The notes beneath the pieces are model-generated. The model saw only the letters and a list, made by a program, of their open reading frames with translations, was not told the origin of the DNA and ran no database searches. From Nitrososphaerota archaeon (GTDB taxonomy: Archaea > Thermoproteota > Nitrososphaeria > Nitrososphaerales > JACPRH01): 64,000 nucleotides of DNA. Of this stretch, positions 11,994 to 54,430 are shown piece by piece; within the stretch, counting starts at the first letter, position 1; each line of letters starts with the position of its first letter. Location: contig JACPRH010000034.1 of assembly GCA_016190055.1 (NCBI GenBank), forward strand, positions 1-64,000. The letters run 5' to 3'. The position numbers and the translations under genes are program-made.

Positions 11994-12170
11994 ATGAAGC
12001 CAATTATGCGTAAATGCCGCGTCTGCGGCGACTATACTCTTGAGATGAAGTGCCCTAAATGCAGCGGCGAAACCACCACCGTTCACCCCCCTAAATTCTC
12101 ACCAGACGACAAATACGCACGGTACCGTGTACAGGAACGCTACCAGCAAACCCAAGAATCCAAAGAATAG
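11994..12170 (+). CDS. nop10: H/ACA ribonucleoprotein subunit Nop10
   Basis: A 58-residue protein whose sequence is characteristic of Nop10: KCRVCGDYTLEMKCPKC (zinc ribbon) followed by HPPKFSPDDKYARYR. It is a structural subunit of the H/ACA RNPs that convert uridines to pseudouridine in rRNA. The start may be the ATG at 11994 or the Met four codons on. Many archaea keep aIF2-alpha between eS27 and Nop10; here that gene is at 38.4 kb. Confidence 0.92.
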   Translation: MKPIMRKCRVCGDYTLEMKCPKCSGETTTVHPPKFSPDDKYARYRVQERYQQTQESKE

Positions 12171-12302
12171 ACTGCCTGCAGTAAGTAAATAATCAAAAAG
12201 AAGGAAAGAACGAGAAAAGGGAAGGAGTGGTTTCTCACACGGAAGAAGCCACCACCTGCTTCAGACAGGAATTTACCTATCTGCTAACTAGCTAGTTGAA
12301 GT

Positions 12303-14489
12303 CTACTTTACTATTTGGTAGACTATGACTCCTGCGAAGAGTCCGTCTTGGGGTTGAGCTAGGCTTGATGACATGAATGCTAGTCTAAGTGGTCCTTGTC
12401 CGTCCGCCGAGTACTTCATGTCGTAGAAGTAGGTGGATTGGAAGCCGTTTTGGTATTGAGTTGCGTTTGTGAATTGTAGCTGGTTGCCCTGTGGCTCAAC
12501 GTAGCTTGCGAAGGTGAAGGGCATCATTTTGCCTAGGAAGGTGTTGTCCCAGAAGTAGGGTTTAGGTGTGAACTCGTCGTTCTCCAGATACTTGGTTGTG
12601 TCGAAGCCGCCTATCTTCATGAACCACTGCTTCTTGCTTTCATCTCCAGCGTTGCCGAGCAGATAGATTCTCTGGGTGCTGCCCTGCAAGGTGAATGATT
12701 GGCCGACCACGAATATGACTACGTAATCCGCCTTCAAATCGTGCAGTATCTTCATCCCGGTCTTCTCGTCAGAGATGAACATTTGCCCTATCTGAGCGAT
12801 TCTTGTAGTGTTGATAGTAGCGTTATCCGCCAGACTGGTTCTGTTACCCATCACTGTAATCCAGTAACCATAGTCCCACCACGCAGCCATGACTGTGGGT
12901 TTACCGTCAGGCTGATACGGCGGCGTGCTGTGGTTAATCCACGATAAGGTCTCAAGCCAGTCCGGTATAGTTGCTCGATAGTTTGTGGAGGCATCAGCTA
13001 TGCTTACCGGAGCATCAGCGGTTTGAAGCCAGTTCGTCTGCAACGGGAATGCGACTGGTAAAGAGATGATCACTATGATGAAAATTGAGTAGACGAGCTT
13101 CATCGCAGTCCGGGTCTCACCTATCTTGAACTTCTTCTTAGTCACTGACGATGTTGTGGACGGGCGGAGCATCGTTGAAGTAAGCTCATGCAACCCAATT
13201 CCAGCCAGTATCGCGAAGGCGACTGATGAGTAGACCATCAGCCTAGCGAAGGAACCTGAAACGTAGAGCGCACCTATAGCCAGCACCAGCGTAAATCCTG
13301 CGTAGATGGTTCTCTTACGCATCATCATCAGGGCTCCGAAGCCTGCTAGGAAGGTTAACGCTAAGTACGATGAGAGATACTCTGCTCCAGTCGGTGTCTG
13401 ATGCTCTGCAACTGACTGGACGAGCGGGTTATTCGATCTGAAGAACGGATCGAGGACTGTCTGATATCTGCCACCGAGGCTGGGTATCGACCCGAGGCTT
13501 GCATACACCGCTAAGCCCAGTACTGCTAGGAAGATGACTTTTAGAAGCGTACGGGAATAATCCTTCGGGTCAACTAGACTCTTAACACTGTAGGCTGCGG
13601 TTGAGAACAGCAGGCCGCCGAGCAGCGCTATACCGGCCAGCCCTGAGATAATTTCGGGACCGGGACGCGGAAATGCCGCGCTGAAGATAAGGTTGGTGGC
13701 TGTGAACAGGCTTCCAAGGTAGACTGTTCTTTTCAAATCAACCTTCAAGAAGGGCGCTAGGACGAAGAGTCCTCCGAAGACCGCGTTAAAGTACATCGAG
13801 CCTCCCCATGCAGTATTAGCGAGTCCCAGCATGAGACCTGCTGATCCAGCGCGGATAACTTGGCTCAACCGAGACGCTCTCTCATCGTAAATCGTCAAGA
13901 AGAGATAGCTGCCTGCAACCGCTAGGAACAGCGCCAGTGGCTCAGATTTGAACCAGCCTAAAGCGCCTCTCTGAATAATCGGAGGTGAAAATGCGATGAC
14001 TAAGCCTGCCAGTAACCCTGCTGACGCGCTGCTGATTTTTCTTACAAGCAGGTATGTGACAAGCGTCGTTAAAGCTCCTATAAACACTGGGAAGAGAACC
14101 AAGTAATCGTACAGCGTTATGCTGATTCCCAAGATGTTCCGAGCGATAAGATACGTTATTGCCCCGGTGAAGTGTAACCCTTCCTGAGAAGTGCGCGCGA
14201 CGTCGCGGCCCTCTGGATACCACGTACCATAGTCTTTCCATGAGAAGTAGTCAGCGAAGCCGGCGATGCCCTTCTGATCAAAGTGATCCACAAGGAAGTT
14301 GGTCGCACGGTAGTCAAAGTAGGGGTCGAACTCGTGAAGATAGAAACCGTACTTTGCAGGATAAATCCTCATCATTATGGCTGCTGAGAATATGGCAATG
14401 AGTGCCAACGCGATGATGATTGTGCTTCTTCGCACTGTCGGTCTTTGCAACGCCTTTCTCCATTGTGACATACTGATGATCGATCCCAT
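12303..14489 (-). CDS. aglB: Oligosaccharyl transferase STT3/AglB
   Basis: This 728-residue membrane enzyme transfers lipid-linked glycans to Asn-X-Ser/Thr sites on exported proteins. The N-terminal half has about a dozen hydrophobic helices. The first outer loop carries the catalytic EFDPYFDYR acidic motif (about residue 53), a second DxD-like region follows at YPEGRDV, and the soluble C-terminal part has the STT3 hallmark WWDYGYW near residue 518. It is a single-subunit archaeal OST. The Thr/Ser-rich surface proteins in this window are plausible neighbours in the same secretory route. Confidence 0.95.
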   Translation of the reverse strand: MGSIISMSQWRKALQRPTVRRSTIIIALALIAIFSAAIMMRIYPAKYGFYLHEFDPYFDYRATNFLVDHFDQKGIAGFADYFSWKDYGTWYPEGRDVARTSQEGLHFTGAITYLIARNILGISITLYDYLVLFPVFIGALTTLVTYLLVRKISSASAGLLAGLVIAFSPPIIQRGALGWFKSEPLALFLAVAGSYLFLTIYDERASRLSQVIRAGSAGLMLGLANTAWGGSMYFNAVFGGLFVLAPFLKVDLKRTVYLGSLFTATNLIFSAAFPRPGPEIISGLAGIALLGGLLFSTAAYSVKSLVDPKDYSRTLLKVIFLAVLGLAVYASLGSIPSLGGRYQTVLDPFFRSNNPLVQSVAEHQTPTGAEYLSSYLALTFLAGFGALMMMRKRTIYAGFTLVLAIGALYVSGSFARLMVYSSVAFAILAGIGLHELTSTMLRPSTTSSVTKKKFKIGETRTAMKLVYSIFIIVIISLPVAFPLQTNWLQTADAPVSIADASTNYRATIPDWLETLSWINHSTPPYQPDGKPTVMAAWWDYGYWITVMGNRTSLADNATINTTRIAQIGQMFISDEKTGMKILHDLKADYVVIFVVGQSFTLQGSTQRIYLLGNAGDESKKQWFMKIGGFDTTKYLENDEFTPKPYFWDNTFLGKMMPFTFASYVEPQGNQLQFTNATQYQNGFQSTYFYDMKYSADGQGPLRLAFMSSSLAQPQDGLFAGVIVYQIVK

Positions 14490-50438: not shown

Positions 50439-50559
50439 ATAGCTGAATGGGTCGTCTTTGGTGGAAGTAGTTCTCATTTAATCATTAAACGGAAGATAGA
50501 ATAGCGAGTCTGTGAAAAAGAACATGTGAAAAGCGGTTTCAAGAGGATGAACTGAGGAG

Positions 50560-50801
50560 ATGAAGGAAGGTACCCGGGAGATGCTATTCCTAAAGACGTA
50601 GCATTTCAGATTTGCGAGGAAATCCGAAAAGAGAAAGCAGACAAATGGTTTACACAATGTTGGGGCTGTGTGAGGTTCTCAAAGGGCGACCCGAACAAGA
50701 TGTGTCTGAACAGTTCACCGGGCTACCGCGGCTGCAACTTAGTTAACGAACGATACGACCAACGGTATCGTGATGGTTTAGGCGTCTTCAAAGATGAATA
50801 A
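50560..50801 (+). pseudogene. Cys-rich small protein with a frameshift
   Basis: A coding frame reads MKEGTRE from the ATG at 50560, just after a GAGGAG ribosome-binding site, then runs into a stop after 13 codons. One frame over, the sequence continues smoothly as DAIPKDVAFQICEEIRKEK, then CWGCVRFSKGDPNKMC and GCNLVNERYDQRYR, ending at TAA 50801. Restoring one base near 50581 joins the two parts into a single 80-residue zinc-like protein with four or five cysteines. So the gene is frameshifted, or the sequence has an error there. The last 24 bases overlap the convergent XRE gene. Confidence 0.6.
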
Positions 50802-50975
50802 GTCATCGATGGTTGTCTGTAATGCTTTTGCGATGTCGTGTGCTAATTTGAGGGAGGGATTGTATTCTCCTTTCTCTATGAAGAGGATGGTTTCTCTTCT
50901 CACTCCGACCTTTTTCGCGAGGTCTTCTTGGGTGAGGTTGTATCGTGCTCTGAGTTCTTTGATCCTGGTTTTCAC
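50778..50975 (-). CDS. XRE-family helix-turn-helix regulator
   Basis: The 65-residue protein is a complete single-domain [23 protein letters not shown], then [20 protein letters not shown] and [14 protein letters not shown], the YozG/Cro-like form. It is coupled to the DUF2178 membrane protein gene, which ends 2 bases upstream, with a GGGAG ribosome-binding site. It probably represses the pair through the repeats upstream. Confidence 0.92.
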
Positions 50976-50976
50976 T

Positions 50977-51381
50977 TTAGCTCCCTTTCCGCGCTAGGTA
51001 CAAGTATGATGCGGCGAATGCGAATCCCGCGGCGATTACTACAGATACGGTTACAAGGTGGCCTTCCAATTCATACCCAAAGAGTACGTCTGCGAGTGCT
51101 GGAGCGAGGACCGCGCTCAAAATTGCTGCGATGAACCCGTAATACCCTGCTTTGTAGTTTATGTTTTTCAGTCTTTCATCTGCAGCGGGTAGCCCTTTTG
51201 ATATGTTTCTGGCTCTGTCCCACATGATGTATGTGGCAAAAGAGACTAGAATTGCAACTATTGCTACAGATGCGATTTCCCCATATCCGATTGTGCCTGC
51301 AAAGGTGATGTAGGCTATCATTGAGATTAGCACTAAAACTACTAACGACAACCCCAACACTACTACTATTCTATCTTTCAT
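50977..51381 (-). CDS. DUF2178-like four-helix membrane protein
   Basis: The 134-residue protein has four transmembrane helices near residues 5-27, 35-52, 75-98 and 104-127 with a short cytoplasmic loop ([22 protein letters not shown]). DUF2178 genes commonly precede a small XRE regulator, as here. The role is unknown; a membrane sensor or stress-response protein is plausible. The ribosome-binding site AAGGAG lies about 10 bases before its ATG. Confidence 0.8.
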
Positions 51382-51396
51382 TTGTTTTCACACTCC

Positions 51397-51465
51397 TTGT
51401 TAGCTAACAATAACTTTTTGTATTGTATAGCTAACTCCATGTTAGCTATATATAACATTAGCTAT
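51397..51465 (-). promoter_or_regulatory. TTAGCTA operator cluster of the DUF2178/XRE pair
   Basis: Three repeats share the core TTAGCTA. A perfect 14-bp palindrome TTGTTAGCTAACAA lies at 51397-51410, a perfect 10-bp inverted repeat TATAGCTAAC-TCCAT-GTTAGCTATA at 51426-51450, and a half-site ATTAGCTAT at 51457-51465. The minus-strand TATA-like TACAAAAAG lies between the first two, so the sites flank the promoter. Binding by the small XRE protein is the simple explanation. Confidence 0.6.
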
Positions 51466-51652
51466 TTAGGTTTTGCCCCAAACAAGACAAGAAATCTAAC
51501 TTCAGCTCATGTTGTAGGTGGTTGTGAAGGACTCTAGCCAGATCCTAAGGCTATGCAGACTGGGTCACCTGCAGCCTTAAGTTGATTGTCTTGGATGTGC
51601 GGGATAGAATCTTAATTAAGCTTGACGACACTTACCATATTAGAGAATTTCT

Positions 51653-52489
51653 ATGGGAGCAGCTAAAACCCTCAGGAAAGAGTTCCCCAGTGTTCTAGAC
51701 AGCGCATACGAGCAATACAAACAGGATCTAACGCGCTACAAGTTGGTTAAGGAGATTATGAGTAAAAACATTGTCACGATAACGCCTGAGGCAACGGTGT
51801 ACGAGGCTGCCCGAATAATGGGGGAAAAGCACATCGGAAGCCTTATCGTAGAGAAGTATGACACGGCAGTAGGCATAATTACTGAGCGAGACTTGCTTAG
51901 CGAAGTCTTGGCACAGGAAAAAGATCTACGAGCGGAAAAGGTTGAGAAAATCATGTCTTACCCTCTCGTCACCATATGTTCGACTGCCAAAATAAAAGAG
52001 GCCGCTCAAATGATGGTTAATGAGAAGGGGCGGCTTGCCGTCTTCGACTGCGGAAAAATCATGGGTGTAATCACCGCTTCAGACCTGATCAGAAGCCTGC
52101 CCGAAGTCGATGAAACAAAGGTAAGAGTAGACGACTTCATGACCAAGCGGGTCATAACTGCCGACGAGGCAACGTCCGTTAAATCTATAGCCAAAACGAT
52201 GGGCGAACAACGTATTGGAAGCGTCATCATCATGAGCAAAGGACAACCGACTGGGATTTTCACCGAGAGAGATCTGCTAACCACTTTCCTAGCTAATGCT
52301 AAGCCACTAGAAACAAGTGTAGGCACACAAGCTTCGTCGCCACTAGTGACAGTGCCTTCTGGAACAAGCGTTCACAAAGCTGCCGTCACTATGGCCGTGA
52401 AACATATTAGACGATTGCCCATTTCCGAAAAAGGCAAACTTGTAGGTATCGTCACAGCACGCGACCTTGTCGAAGCGTACGCAAAATAG
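51653..52489 (+). CDS. Four-CBS-domain protein
   Basis: The 278-residue protein consists of four CBS repeats in two Bateman modules: IMSKNIVTITPEATVYEAAR, IMSYPLVTICSTAKIKEAAQ, FMTKRVITADEATSVKSIAK and SSPLVTVPSGTSVHKAAVTM, each followed by a GI(I/F)TERDLL-like strand. CBS modules bind adenine nucleotides, S-adenosylmethionine or DNA. The effector and partner are unknown. A short N-terminal helix precedes the first repeat. Confidence 0.9.
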   Translation: MGAAKTLRKEFPSVLDSAYEQYKQDLTRYKLVKEIMSKNIVTITPEATVYEAARIMGEKHIGSLIVEKYDTAVGIITERDLLSEVLAQEKDLRAEKVEKIMSYPLVTICSTAKIKEAAQMMVNEKGRLAVFDCGKIMGVITASDLIRSLPEVDETKVRVDDFMTKRVITADEATSVKSIAKTMGEQRIGSVIIMSKGQPTGIFTERDLLTTFLANAKPLETSVGTQASSPLVTVPSGTSVHKAAVTMAVKHIRRLPISEKGKLVGIVTARDLVEAYAK

Positions 52490-52589
52490 AACTTCAGCAC
52501 TCCTCCTTTTTTTTAACTCAAACATCAAGAGATGAAATTCTCAGAATTCGCTGTGTCGTTGCGAGCCTCTAATACAAAGTTGGAATAAT

Positions 52590-53096
52590 ATGAGTGTAGA
52601 TCGTCGCAAGCTTAGTTTGAGAGAAGACTGGCCCGCGATACCCTACCTCACCCTAATTCTTATTGGCATGGCAGTGTCAGCTTACGACTTCATAGTTCTT
52701 CAGGGTCTCCGAATCCAGTTTTATCCGGTAAACTTGGGAGGTATTGCATTGGTGATCCTTGGAGGCTCCTTAAGGGCAATCAGCAGAATGACGTTAAAGC
52801 GGGCGGGCTTCGGGCTTGTAAACAGCACGCGCCTCCGTGTTATTGAGAAACAGAAACTTATCACTAACGGCATATATGGACACATAAGGCATCCTCTCTA
52901 CTTAGGAGAAATAATACGAAACACAGGCTTCGCTTTTGCCGCATGCAGCCTGTATGGTTTGATACCGATACTCATAGGCAACGTCTTGCTGCTCTTTAGA
53001 ATAGGCGTAGAGGAGAGAATGCTTGTGGAAGAATTCGGAGTGGAGTACGAGGAGTATATGCGGAGAACCTGGAAACTTGTACCTTATGTTTACTAG
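52590..53096 (+). CDS. Isoprenylcysteine methyltransferase-like membrane protein (ICMT/PEMT family)
   Basis: The 168-residue protein has four or five hydrophobic segments and the C-terminal signature GIYGHIRHPLYLGEIIRNTG near residue 95 with VEERMLVEEFGVEYEEYMRR near 135, typical of the ICMT/NnrU/PEMT superfamily that uses S-adenosylmethionine. Archaea have no classical prenylcysteine cycle, so the real substrate is unknown, perhaps a lipid or small thiol. It is followed 51 bases later by a small gene. Confidence 0.85.
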   Translation: MSVDRRKLSLREDWPAIPYLTLILIGMAVSAYDFIVLQGLRIQFYPVNLGGIALVILGGSLRAISRMTLKRAGFGLVNSTRLRVIEKQKLITNGIYGHIRHPLYLGEIIRNTGFAFAACSLYGLIPILIGNVLLLFRIGVEERMLVEEFGVEYEEYMRRTWKLVPYVY

Positions 53097-53147
53097 GAAA
53101 GCAGCATATGCTGTACGTAGAATGATATCTGCGATGGAGGTGAAGAG

Positions 53148-53342
53148 ATGAAGGCGAGATACAGAGTTCACAGAGTTGATATTGTAATGAGAACAGATCA
53201 AGCTCGGTTTGAGCAATTCTTGAACAGTCTTGAGGGTGAAGTGGTCTCAGTTATTCCCAATGTTTCTCCAAGCTGGACTTTCGGAGGAATGGGAGCTAGG
53301 ACGTACTACTTCTGGGTAATCGAAAAAGTGAATCAACCGTAG
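53148..53342 (+). CDS. Small conserved-looking protein
   Basis: The 64-residue protein starts MKARYRVHRVDIVMRTDQAR, continues with a LNSLEGEVVSVIPNV strand-helix-strand and ends YYFWVIEKVNQP, the pattern of a compact alpha/beta or ferredoxin-like fold. A GGAGGTGAAG ribosome-binding site lies just before the ATG, making it a real gene. No family name known to me. Confidence 0.6.
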   Translation: MKARYRVHRVDIVMRTDQARFEQFLNSLEGEVVSVIPNVSPSWTFGGMGARTYYFWVIEKVNQP

Positions 53343-53456
53343 ACAAACGTAAGCGAATAGAGAACAAATGCTCCTTTCCCCTATATGGGCGAGGAATTTC
53401 TCAACAGTAAAAATCAATGATTATGATCAATAGGTTCAAAAAATATTTTGGGGGAT

Positions 53457-53630
53457 TTAGTATTTCATGGACTTCTTTGTCAGGCCGTCCCAATTCTTCC
53501 ACACAAAAACAGTCACTGCAGCAGGATCTACCGCGTTTGTGTAGACATCGCCGCTTATGCCTGTAATCGTCAACCCAACGTTTGAAGGCGCGAAAGTCTT
53601 CAAGAAACGCAAGTAGCCCCCAGGTATCCC
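53457..53630 (-). pseudogene. Start-less coding remnant next to the tRNA-Leu 3' end
   Basis: A minus-strand frame of 57 codons reads GIPGGYLRFLKTFAPSNVGL, then TITGISGDVYTNAVDPAAV and ends WDGLTKKSMKY before a TAA. The residue pattern (alternating hydrophobic strands, Gly, Asn) is protein-like and resembles the end of a beta-sandwich surface protein, but there is no start codon and a TGA stands directly before it. It begins 8 bases past the tRNA 3' end. It is probably the end of a gene lost by rearrangement or excision of an element at the tRNA. Confidence 0.45.
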
Positions 53631-53682
53631 TCAGAAGTGCGGGGGGTGGGATTTGAACCCACGAACCCCTAAGGGACAGGGT

Positions 53683-54273
53683 ATCTTAACTTCTGGGAGC
53701 TGTTGCGATCCAAAGGCGGGCGGTTCGTTGATTCTTCTTAGGTGAGGTTGCGTTATATCCTATTAGTTCAACCATTCCTGACTTTTGCAATCCTTTGAGG
53801 TGTTTTCTTACCACAGAGGCAGAAATATCACAGCCGTATGCCAACTGACGTATAGTCATCGGTTTCGTCATTAACAGATCTAATAGTTGCTTGCGTGTCA
53901 TTCCCCGTGGCTGTTTACGAGTTCCACCAACTGGATTCCTTAGGATGTGCTGGAACATCTTGTCCTGATCCTTATCAGGTAATGGACCAATTGTTTGATA
54001 TATGTCTCTTCGTCCTTCGGCACGAAAGCTTACGCACCATTTTGAATGATTCTCATATTCTTTAGTTCTCAAATGGTGCACTAAGCCCCATCTATTAGCT
54101 ACATTCCACAGATGAACCGCGTTCTGACGACTCGTATATGTGACCACTAACGTTCCGTCTGCGCCAATAGATCCTTCGTCGATTATGGCTTGCCCTATGA
54201 TTGCCATTGCTACGTCCTTATCCTCCATCGCCTTTTCCGCTATTTTCTTCATCCTTCTATGCTCCCAGAGGTT
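53683..54273 (-). mobile_element. 591-nt archaeal tRNA intron with bulge-helix-bulge splice site
   Basis: The exon-intron junctions fold into a canonical bulge-helix-bulge. The anticodon stem is followed by a 4-bp central helix (exon CTTA with intron TAAG). On either side is a 3-nt bulge, GGA at the 5' junction and ATA at the 3' junction, with cleavage after the second base of each. Beyond the bulges the intron ends pair in a 10-bp stem (ACCTCTGGGA with TCCCAGAAGT, one mismatch). The splicing endonuclease would excise exactly 591 nt and leave a normal 7-nt anticodon loop. The intron is filled by a homing-endonuclease-like gene. Confidence 0.88.
53686..54252 (-). CDS. Intron-encoded LAGLIDADG-type homing endonuclease
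   Basis: The 188-residue protein starts at the ATG at 54252, inside the intron and 22 codons after a purely fortuitous earlier Met in exon 1. Residues 16-30 (MAIIGQAIIDEGSIG) match the single LAGLIDADG helix in its IGxIIxDGS-like form, with acidic residues at the catalytic position. The following YTSRQNAVHLWNVANRWGLV and WCVSFRAEGRRDIYQ fit the beta-rich DNA-binding part. The C-terminal 70 residues form a winged helix (TRKQLLDLLMTKPMTIRQLA) that could add DNA contact or repression. A single-motif enzyme would act as a dimer. The TAA stop is three bases before the intron end, inside the splice helix. Confidence 0.72.
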   Translation of the reverse strand: MKKIAEKAMEDKDVAMAIIGQAIIDEGSIGADGTLVVTYTSRQNAVHLWNVANRWGLVHHLRTKEYENHSKWCVSFRAEGRRDIYQTIGPLPDKDQDKMFQHILRNPVGGTRKQPRGMTRKQLLDLLMTKPMTIRQLAYGCDISASVVRKHLKGLQKSGMVELIGYNATSPKKNQRTARLWIATAPRS

Positions 54274-54430
54274 CCTAAGCCCTGCGCCGTTGGCCAGGCT
54301 TGGCAACCCCCGCGCATGTAGTCGATGCTCTGTCTTTCATCATAATATGAAGCTTTTCCTTAACCCTTCTCTGCTGATGGTTCCGGCTAAGAGGTCTCAA
54401 CCGCTCTGCCCTGCCTCTTTGGCAAAAGAG

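Follow-up and report, generated by a model that had tools for sequence, protein, structure and literature searches.

A tRNA-Leu(UAG) gene of a Nitrososphaerota archaeon interrupted by a bulge-helix-bulge intron coding for a predicted homing endonuclease

The 64-kb stretch of DNA considered here (positions 1 to 64,000 of contig JACPRH010000034.1 from a Nitrososphaerota archaeon; hereafter the window) encodes on its minus strand (54313–53638) a complete tRNA-Leu(UAG); an intron of 591 nt, largely occupied by an open reading frame (ORF), interrupts it following nucleotide 37. Several observations support the mobile nature of this intron: a tRNA split into two halves; a splice motif at the junctions; an intron consisting mostly of ORF; empty sites in relatives; homologues at the same site; derivatives shortened by deletion; and a patchy spread across archaea. 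Hence, we propose with considerable confidence, on the strength of sequence comparisons, that it represents a mobile homing-endonuclease intron of the bulge-helix-bulge (BHB) type that is specialized on the anticodon arm of tRNA-Leu, has crossed archaeal phyla and decays to short introns (Table 1).

The tRNA was recovered with ARAGORN when introns were permitted: the sole tRNA gene of the window is tRNA-Leu(tag) at complement 53637–54313, with an intron of 591 nt after base 40, and just one of 30 shuffled windows gave any match with the same settings. Default ARAGORN and the Rfam tRNA model at its gathering score (cut-off 29 bits) do not detect this gene, as is expected with an insertion of 591 nt. 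The joined exons yield an 85-nt class II tRNA-Leu with the loop CTTAGGA, and the insertion point of the intron, 37/38, is the canonical one for archaeal tRNA introns. At the splice junctions, the anticodon stem CAGGG/CCCTG adjoins a central helix CTTA/TAAG, paired at all four positions, with two 3-nt bulges (GGA and ATA) and an outer helix in which 11 of the 12 positions are paired and one is mismatched. A preliminary description of this DNA, made from the sequence alone, had already placed between 53638 and 54313 two complete halves of one tRNA-Leu(UAG), a 591-nt intron and a BHB with the same 4-bp helix, bulges and loop. ARAGORN reproduces the intron exactly and joins the halves, the intronless orthologue of a congener passes the Rfam tRNA model, and our segmentation of the junctions agrees with the motif, which the 12-position outer helix extends.

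Across the family of related introns detailed below, three to four of the four central-helix positions and 9–12 of the 12 outer-helix positions are paired. The outer helices of the window and of its relatives L072 (Methanophagales archaeon RS_14_10) and L074 (Bathyarchaeota UBA233, the place of genome G527) are unrelated in sequence, each pairing at 11 of 12 positions with its own partner and at 5–7 of 12 with a swapped one; within the Bathyarchaeia they are alike enough for cross-pairing. To judge from these comparisons, it is the pairing of the outer helix that is kept and not its sequence. The central helix of L072 (4239–4913) contains an A-G mismatch (CTTA/GAAG); an A-G mismatch is also seen in L074, L073 (Candidatus Bathyarchaeia Yes46-05, the place of G406) and L071, while that of the window and L070 is perfect. 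The window genome (G000) codes for two different tRNA_int_endo (EndA) proteins above the Pfam cut-off (G000:C48:5253-5504 and G000:C22:27381-27635), as in the two-subunit EndA types with a broad substrate range.

The ORF makes up 96% of the intron. Its stop codon TAA belongs to the splice helix, where it falls in the TAAG strand, and yet lies within the excised RNA, so that the complete ORF is retained in the excised intron. Sequence searches of the PDB and PHROG returned winged-helix or unrelated proteins only. A single-sequence AlphaFold model attained a predicted local distance difference test score (pLDDT) of 38, and an AlphaFold2 model built on an alignment of three sequences 76.5. The N-terminal elements of the latter follow the order helix-strand-strand-helix-strand-strand-helix, as in a LAGLIDADG half, and the helix spanning codons 12–26 ends at the invariant E26. 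Comparison of this model with the PDB using Foldseek gave as best matches the LAGLIDADG enzymes I-CvuI (E 3.0e-3) and PI-PfuI (E 4.3e-3; 2.4 Å over 100 columns), with probabilities of 0.99–1.00; lower down were I-DmoI, I-Tsp061I and WhiA (3hyi), the remainder being mostly winged-helix regulators, and the LAGLIDADG enzymes had probabilities of 0.7–1.0. The codon differences between the window and L072 ORFs fall on 56% of third, 33% of first and 26% of second positions, with a proportion of nonsynonymous differences (pN) of 0.27 and saturated synonymous sites; on such codon-level evidence, the three intact ORFs of the family are under purifying selection. The preliminary description had the 188-codon frame, and its TAA within the splice helix, at the right coordinates, and its C-terminal winged helix is borne out by Pfam. 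The LAGLIDADG-like helix it noted has gained a predicted fold (AlphaFold, Foldseek) but no match to a profile hidden Markov model (HMM). As to its concern that the protein might belong to an unrelated family, the N-terminal half has no unrelated match and the predicted fold matches LAGLIDADG enzymes.

Table 1. Features of the interrupted tRNA-Leu(UAG) locus in the window
Feature	Position	Strand	Details and evidence
tRNA-Leu(UAG) exon 1 (nucleotides 1–37)	54274..54313	-	40 bases; anticodon TAG 54277–54275; ARAGORN, exon segmentation, joined exons 84/85 identical to intronless G001 orthologue
BHB intron, 591 nt, between tRNA positions 37 and 38	53683..54273	-	ARAGORN; absent in syntenic congener
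tRNA-Leu(UAG) exon 2 (nucleotides 38–73)	53638..53682	-	discriminator A, CCA not encoded; ARAGORN; 46 bp identical in G001
BHB central helix, 5' strand CTTA	54276..54279	-	followed by bulge GGA 54275–54273
BHB central helix, 3' strand TAAG	53685..53688	-	followed by bulge ATA 53684–53682; TAA 53688–53686 is the ORF stop
Outer splice helix, 5' strand ACCTCTGGGAGC	54261..54272	-	11/12 paired with 53689–53700; in relatives other sequence, still paired
Outer splice helix, 3' strand GCTCCCAGAAGT	53689..53700	-	
ORF of 188 codons; product predicted to be a homing endonuclease of LAGLIDADG fold with a winged helix at its C-terminus	53686..54252	-	ATG at 54252, TAA 53688–53686
LAGLIDADG-like helix, codons 12–27 (KDVAMAIIGQAIIDEG)	54172..54219	-	D25 and E26 invariant in five relatives; model helix 12–26
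ArsR-type winged helix-turn-helix, codons 119–162	53767..53898	-	Pfam HTH_5, E 1.2e-8 (2.3e-8 with present numbering)
Presumed homing site, right half ACCCTGTC	53675..53682	-	putative recognition role
Presumed homing site, left half GGCGCAGGGCTTAGG	54288–54274	-	putative recognition role

The relatives of this intron were traced in steps: a search of the phylum led to G527 and G406, in both of which the ORF lies within a tRNA gene; a search of the class around G527 added G804 and G782; and a search with the first alignment added one further member, L072. All five relatives interrupt a tRNA-Leu gene at 37/38, the anticodon being UAG in the window and the Methanophagales and GAG in the Bathyarchaeia. 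Two are intact: L072, with a 589-nt intron and a 187-codon ORF that is 58% identical to that of the window, and L074, with a 585-nt intron and a 185-codon ORF that is 46% identical. The window ORF is thus nearer to that of the Methanophagales than to those of the Bathyarchaeia of its own phylum, with members too few for a tree. The other Bathyarchaeia introns are shortened to 302 (L073), 299 (L070) and 142 nt (L071); their BHB is still present and they keep the ORF start and last codons (..YRLAELWLASES, ..HRLAELWSA and ..LAELWLASKS, each followed by the stop), with the middle and the frame gone. Judging by their sequences, these are decayed derivatives of an ORF-bearing intron that arose by internal deletion. 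An annotation trap deserves mention: ARAGORN names three of the intron-bearing tRNA-Leu(GAG) genes (L051/L068, L052/L069 and L071) tRNA-Phe(gaa), a wrong label given that their variable arm is long and their loop reads CTGAGGC, both as in tRNA-Leu(GAG).

Empty sites are found close to both the window intron and L072. The intronless orthologue that had been hoped for among relatives exists in G001, a genome of the same genus, where the syntenic tRNA-Leu(UAG) (locus L045; 84 of 85 bases identical, Rfam tRNA score 53.6 bits) is embedded in flanking DNA about 85–88% identical to that of the window. Likewise, four Methanophagales relatives (G889, G890, G916 and G917) possess intronless tRNAs that are 100% identical, and in G916 and G917 the empty site is syntenic with L072 and has the same downstream gene, which places the L072 contig in the Methanophagales lineage. 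The relatives are hence not uniformly decayed, as had been feared: there is an empty site in the congener, and in other archaea this position is occupied by copies that are either intact or decayed.

The spread of the family is patchy. Among 400 genomes of the window's class, that of the window is the sole convincing match; members occur in four of 257 Bathyarchaeia genomes and, by profile search, in one of the 375 genomes covered from the phylum of the Methanophagales. The profile search of these 375 genomes and of 349 from the window's phylum returned no additional members. Single-sequence protein searches yielded no relative in genome contigs, viral contigs or phages and only a winged-helix match in plasmids, and alignment queries of viral contigs likewise yielded no relative. 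A weak match in the class, G398, is a protein-coding region with no tRNA, which we take to be due to chance, and the other weak matches in the phylum that were scanned show no tRNA either. The 5'-half-only matches in G867 and G868, which resembled long introns, are actually ordinary short introns. These two Syntropharchaeia loci (L093 and L094, respectively) have introns of about 35–41 nt at the 37/38 position of tRNA-Leu(UAG), and could be end products of the decay of the ORF.

The presumed homing site is the joined 23-mer GGCGCAGGGCTTAGG/ACCCTGTC, which is identical in the exons of the window and L072 and runs without a break through the listed tRNA-Leu genes that have no intron, among them those of G001 and the Methanophagales relatives. 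The anticodon arm is nearly palindromic, at seven of nine half-site bases. Briefly, we advance the following mechanism. The host splicing endonuclease EndA would cut the pre-tRNA at the BHB, and the halves would be ligated into a normal tRNA, whereupon the excised intron, probably circularized, would carry the complete ORF. As there is one motif per protein, a dimer is expected: the single-motif LAGLIDADG-fold protein would act as a homodimer, aided by its winged helix, and cut tRNA-Leu genes that lack the intron; its target there would be the anticodon arm, which is by nature an inverted repeat (GGCGCAGGG-CTTAGGA-CCCTGTCCC), with the expected cut adjoining 37/38. Repair from the intron-bearing copy would then install the intron, and following fixation, decay of the ORF would leave behind a short, splice-competent intron. 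Both the cleavage of DNA by the protein and the mobility of the intron are what we infer from the comparisons above.

Several points weigh against this proposal. The motif, GQAIIDEG, deviates from the LAGLIDADG consensus; the N-terminal half has no Pfam match and no LAGLIDADG family is among the Pfam matches listed; NCBIfam and PHROGs profiles match only as helix-turn-helix or unrelated families, none being LAGLIDADG; and no Foldseek match to the PDB has an E-value below 0.001 (the best being 3e-3). Further, the family is small, with three intact members, and the window genome is an 87.5% complete draft that may have a second, intronless copy of tRNA-Leu(UAG). Because no Foldseek match is below 1e-3 and there is no HMM support, membership in the LAGLIDADG group is predicted from the fold of the model, one conserved residue and the context.

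Given this divergence of the motif, the protein might instead be a maturase or regulator: with the tRNA locus or the pre-tRNA as its binding target, it would aid splicing or control transcription. Its combination of a LAGLIDADG-like fold with a helix-turn-helix is the architecture of WhiA (DUF199), the sporulation regulator found among the Foldseek matches, and winged helices of the ArsR type typically occur in regulators. However, WhiA is a free-standing bacterial regulator that is not intron-borne, and the winged helix of the window protein is ArsR-like; E26, the acidic residue with which the helix ends, is invariant; and the patchy, cross-phylum occurrence, the empty sites and the decay series are more readily reconciled with a selfish element than with a host regulator. 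Moreover, the splice motif persists in the decayed introns although their ORF is no longer intact, so the protein is seemingly dispensable for splicing, and we regard such a role as improbable. We consider it quite unlikely that the intron is ancient, vertically inherited, lost in most relatives and no longer mobile. While introns at 37/38 are usually considered ancient and not mobile (PMC4390854), and the loss of an intron is easy in principle, its convincing occurrence in a single genome of the 400 sampled from the class, together with a congener that is syntenic but has no intron and a nearest relative belonging to another phylum, would require very many independent losses, and the ORF has an intact frame that is subject to purifying selection. 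Finally, an assembly chimera or a tRNA pseudogene, with the ORF wrongly joined to tRNA halves, is conceivable for a 63-contig draft but can hardly be credited, as the 5'-side flank is syntenic with G001, the exons combine into a perfect tRNA, and five further assemblies, belonging to two other archaeal groups, show this arrangement as well.

In terms of known systems, BHB introns encoding LAGLIDADG proteins have been described from archaeal rRNA genes (PMC4496867; PMC6125680). Those introns (I-DmoI, I-Tsp061I, etc.) share with that of the window the BHB motif, an intronic ORF, empty and filled alleles and a LAGLIDADG-like fold; in contrast, the window intron is in a tRNA anticodon loop at 37/38, and its protein has one motif, a C-terminal winged helix and no Pfam LAGLIDADG match. 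Ordinary archaeal 37/38 tRNA introns (e.g., the 35–41 nt introns of G867 and G868) have the same position and type of splice site but are tens of nucleotides long, with no ORF. In bacteria, group I introns of tRNAs carry homing endonuclease genes (Synechocystis tRNA-fMet, I-SspI), and are likewise homing elements in a tRNA anticodon loop; however, they are self-splicing ribozymes with an unrelated nuclease fold, whereas the window intron has a BHB and a group I intron is rejected, there being no Rfam intron match in the window even at E 10. Translocated tRNA introns are reported from the Thermoproteales by Fujishima 2010, as cited in PMC4033280. These too are tRNA introns that have moved. To our knowledge, they possess no ORF. 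Class II tRNAs are said to have no translocatable introns (PMC4390854), and the words 'homing' and 'ORF' are absent from a review of tRNA introns (PMC4090602). We found no prior report of a protein-coding or homing-endonuclease archaeal tRNA intron in the literature covered, subscription journals lying outside it.

As regards the origin of archaeal tRNA introns, this family of ORF-bearing introns offers a plausible one at the 37/38 position and tRNA class in question, with all stages represented: empty site, intact element, decaying element and short remnant. It also predicts a definite enzyme, target site and product. By extension, we tentatively raise the possibility, which we hold to be less probable than its converse, that the canonical 37/38 position is in part a homing site, with homodimeric endonucleases reading the anticodon stem as a palindrome and inserting ORF-bearing BHB introns, from which decay of the ORF yields the short introns of today. 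If true, canonical tRNA introns would be recurrently renewed by selfish elements and not solely inherited from ancient tRNAs. On a practical note, default annotation can overlook an essential tRNA.

The surroundings of the tRNA also differ between the congeners. On its 3' side, window positions 50439–53637 are wholly unlike L045 3844–9419 of G001, the DNA beyond being about 87% identical; this side is possibly an indel hot spot. The ORFs there, named by eye, are CBS-domain-like and methyltransferase-like in the window and ABC-transporter-like and AsnC-like in G001. A few kb from the tRNA, L045 of G001 has at 12145–13335 (by synteny about 57.7–58.9 kb in the window) a 396-codon ORF that by eye is tyrosine-recombinase-like.
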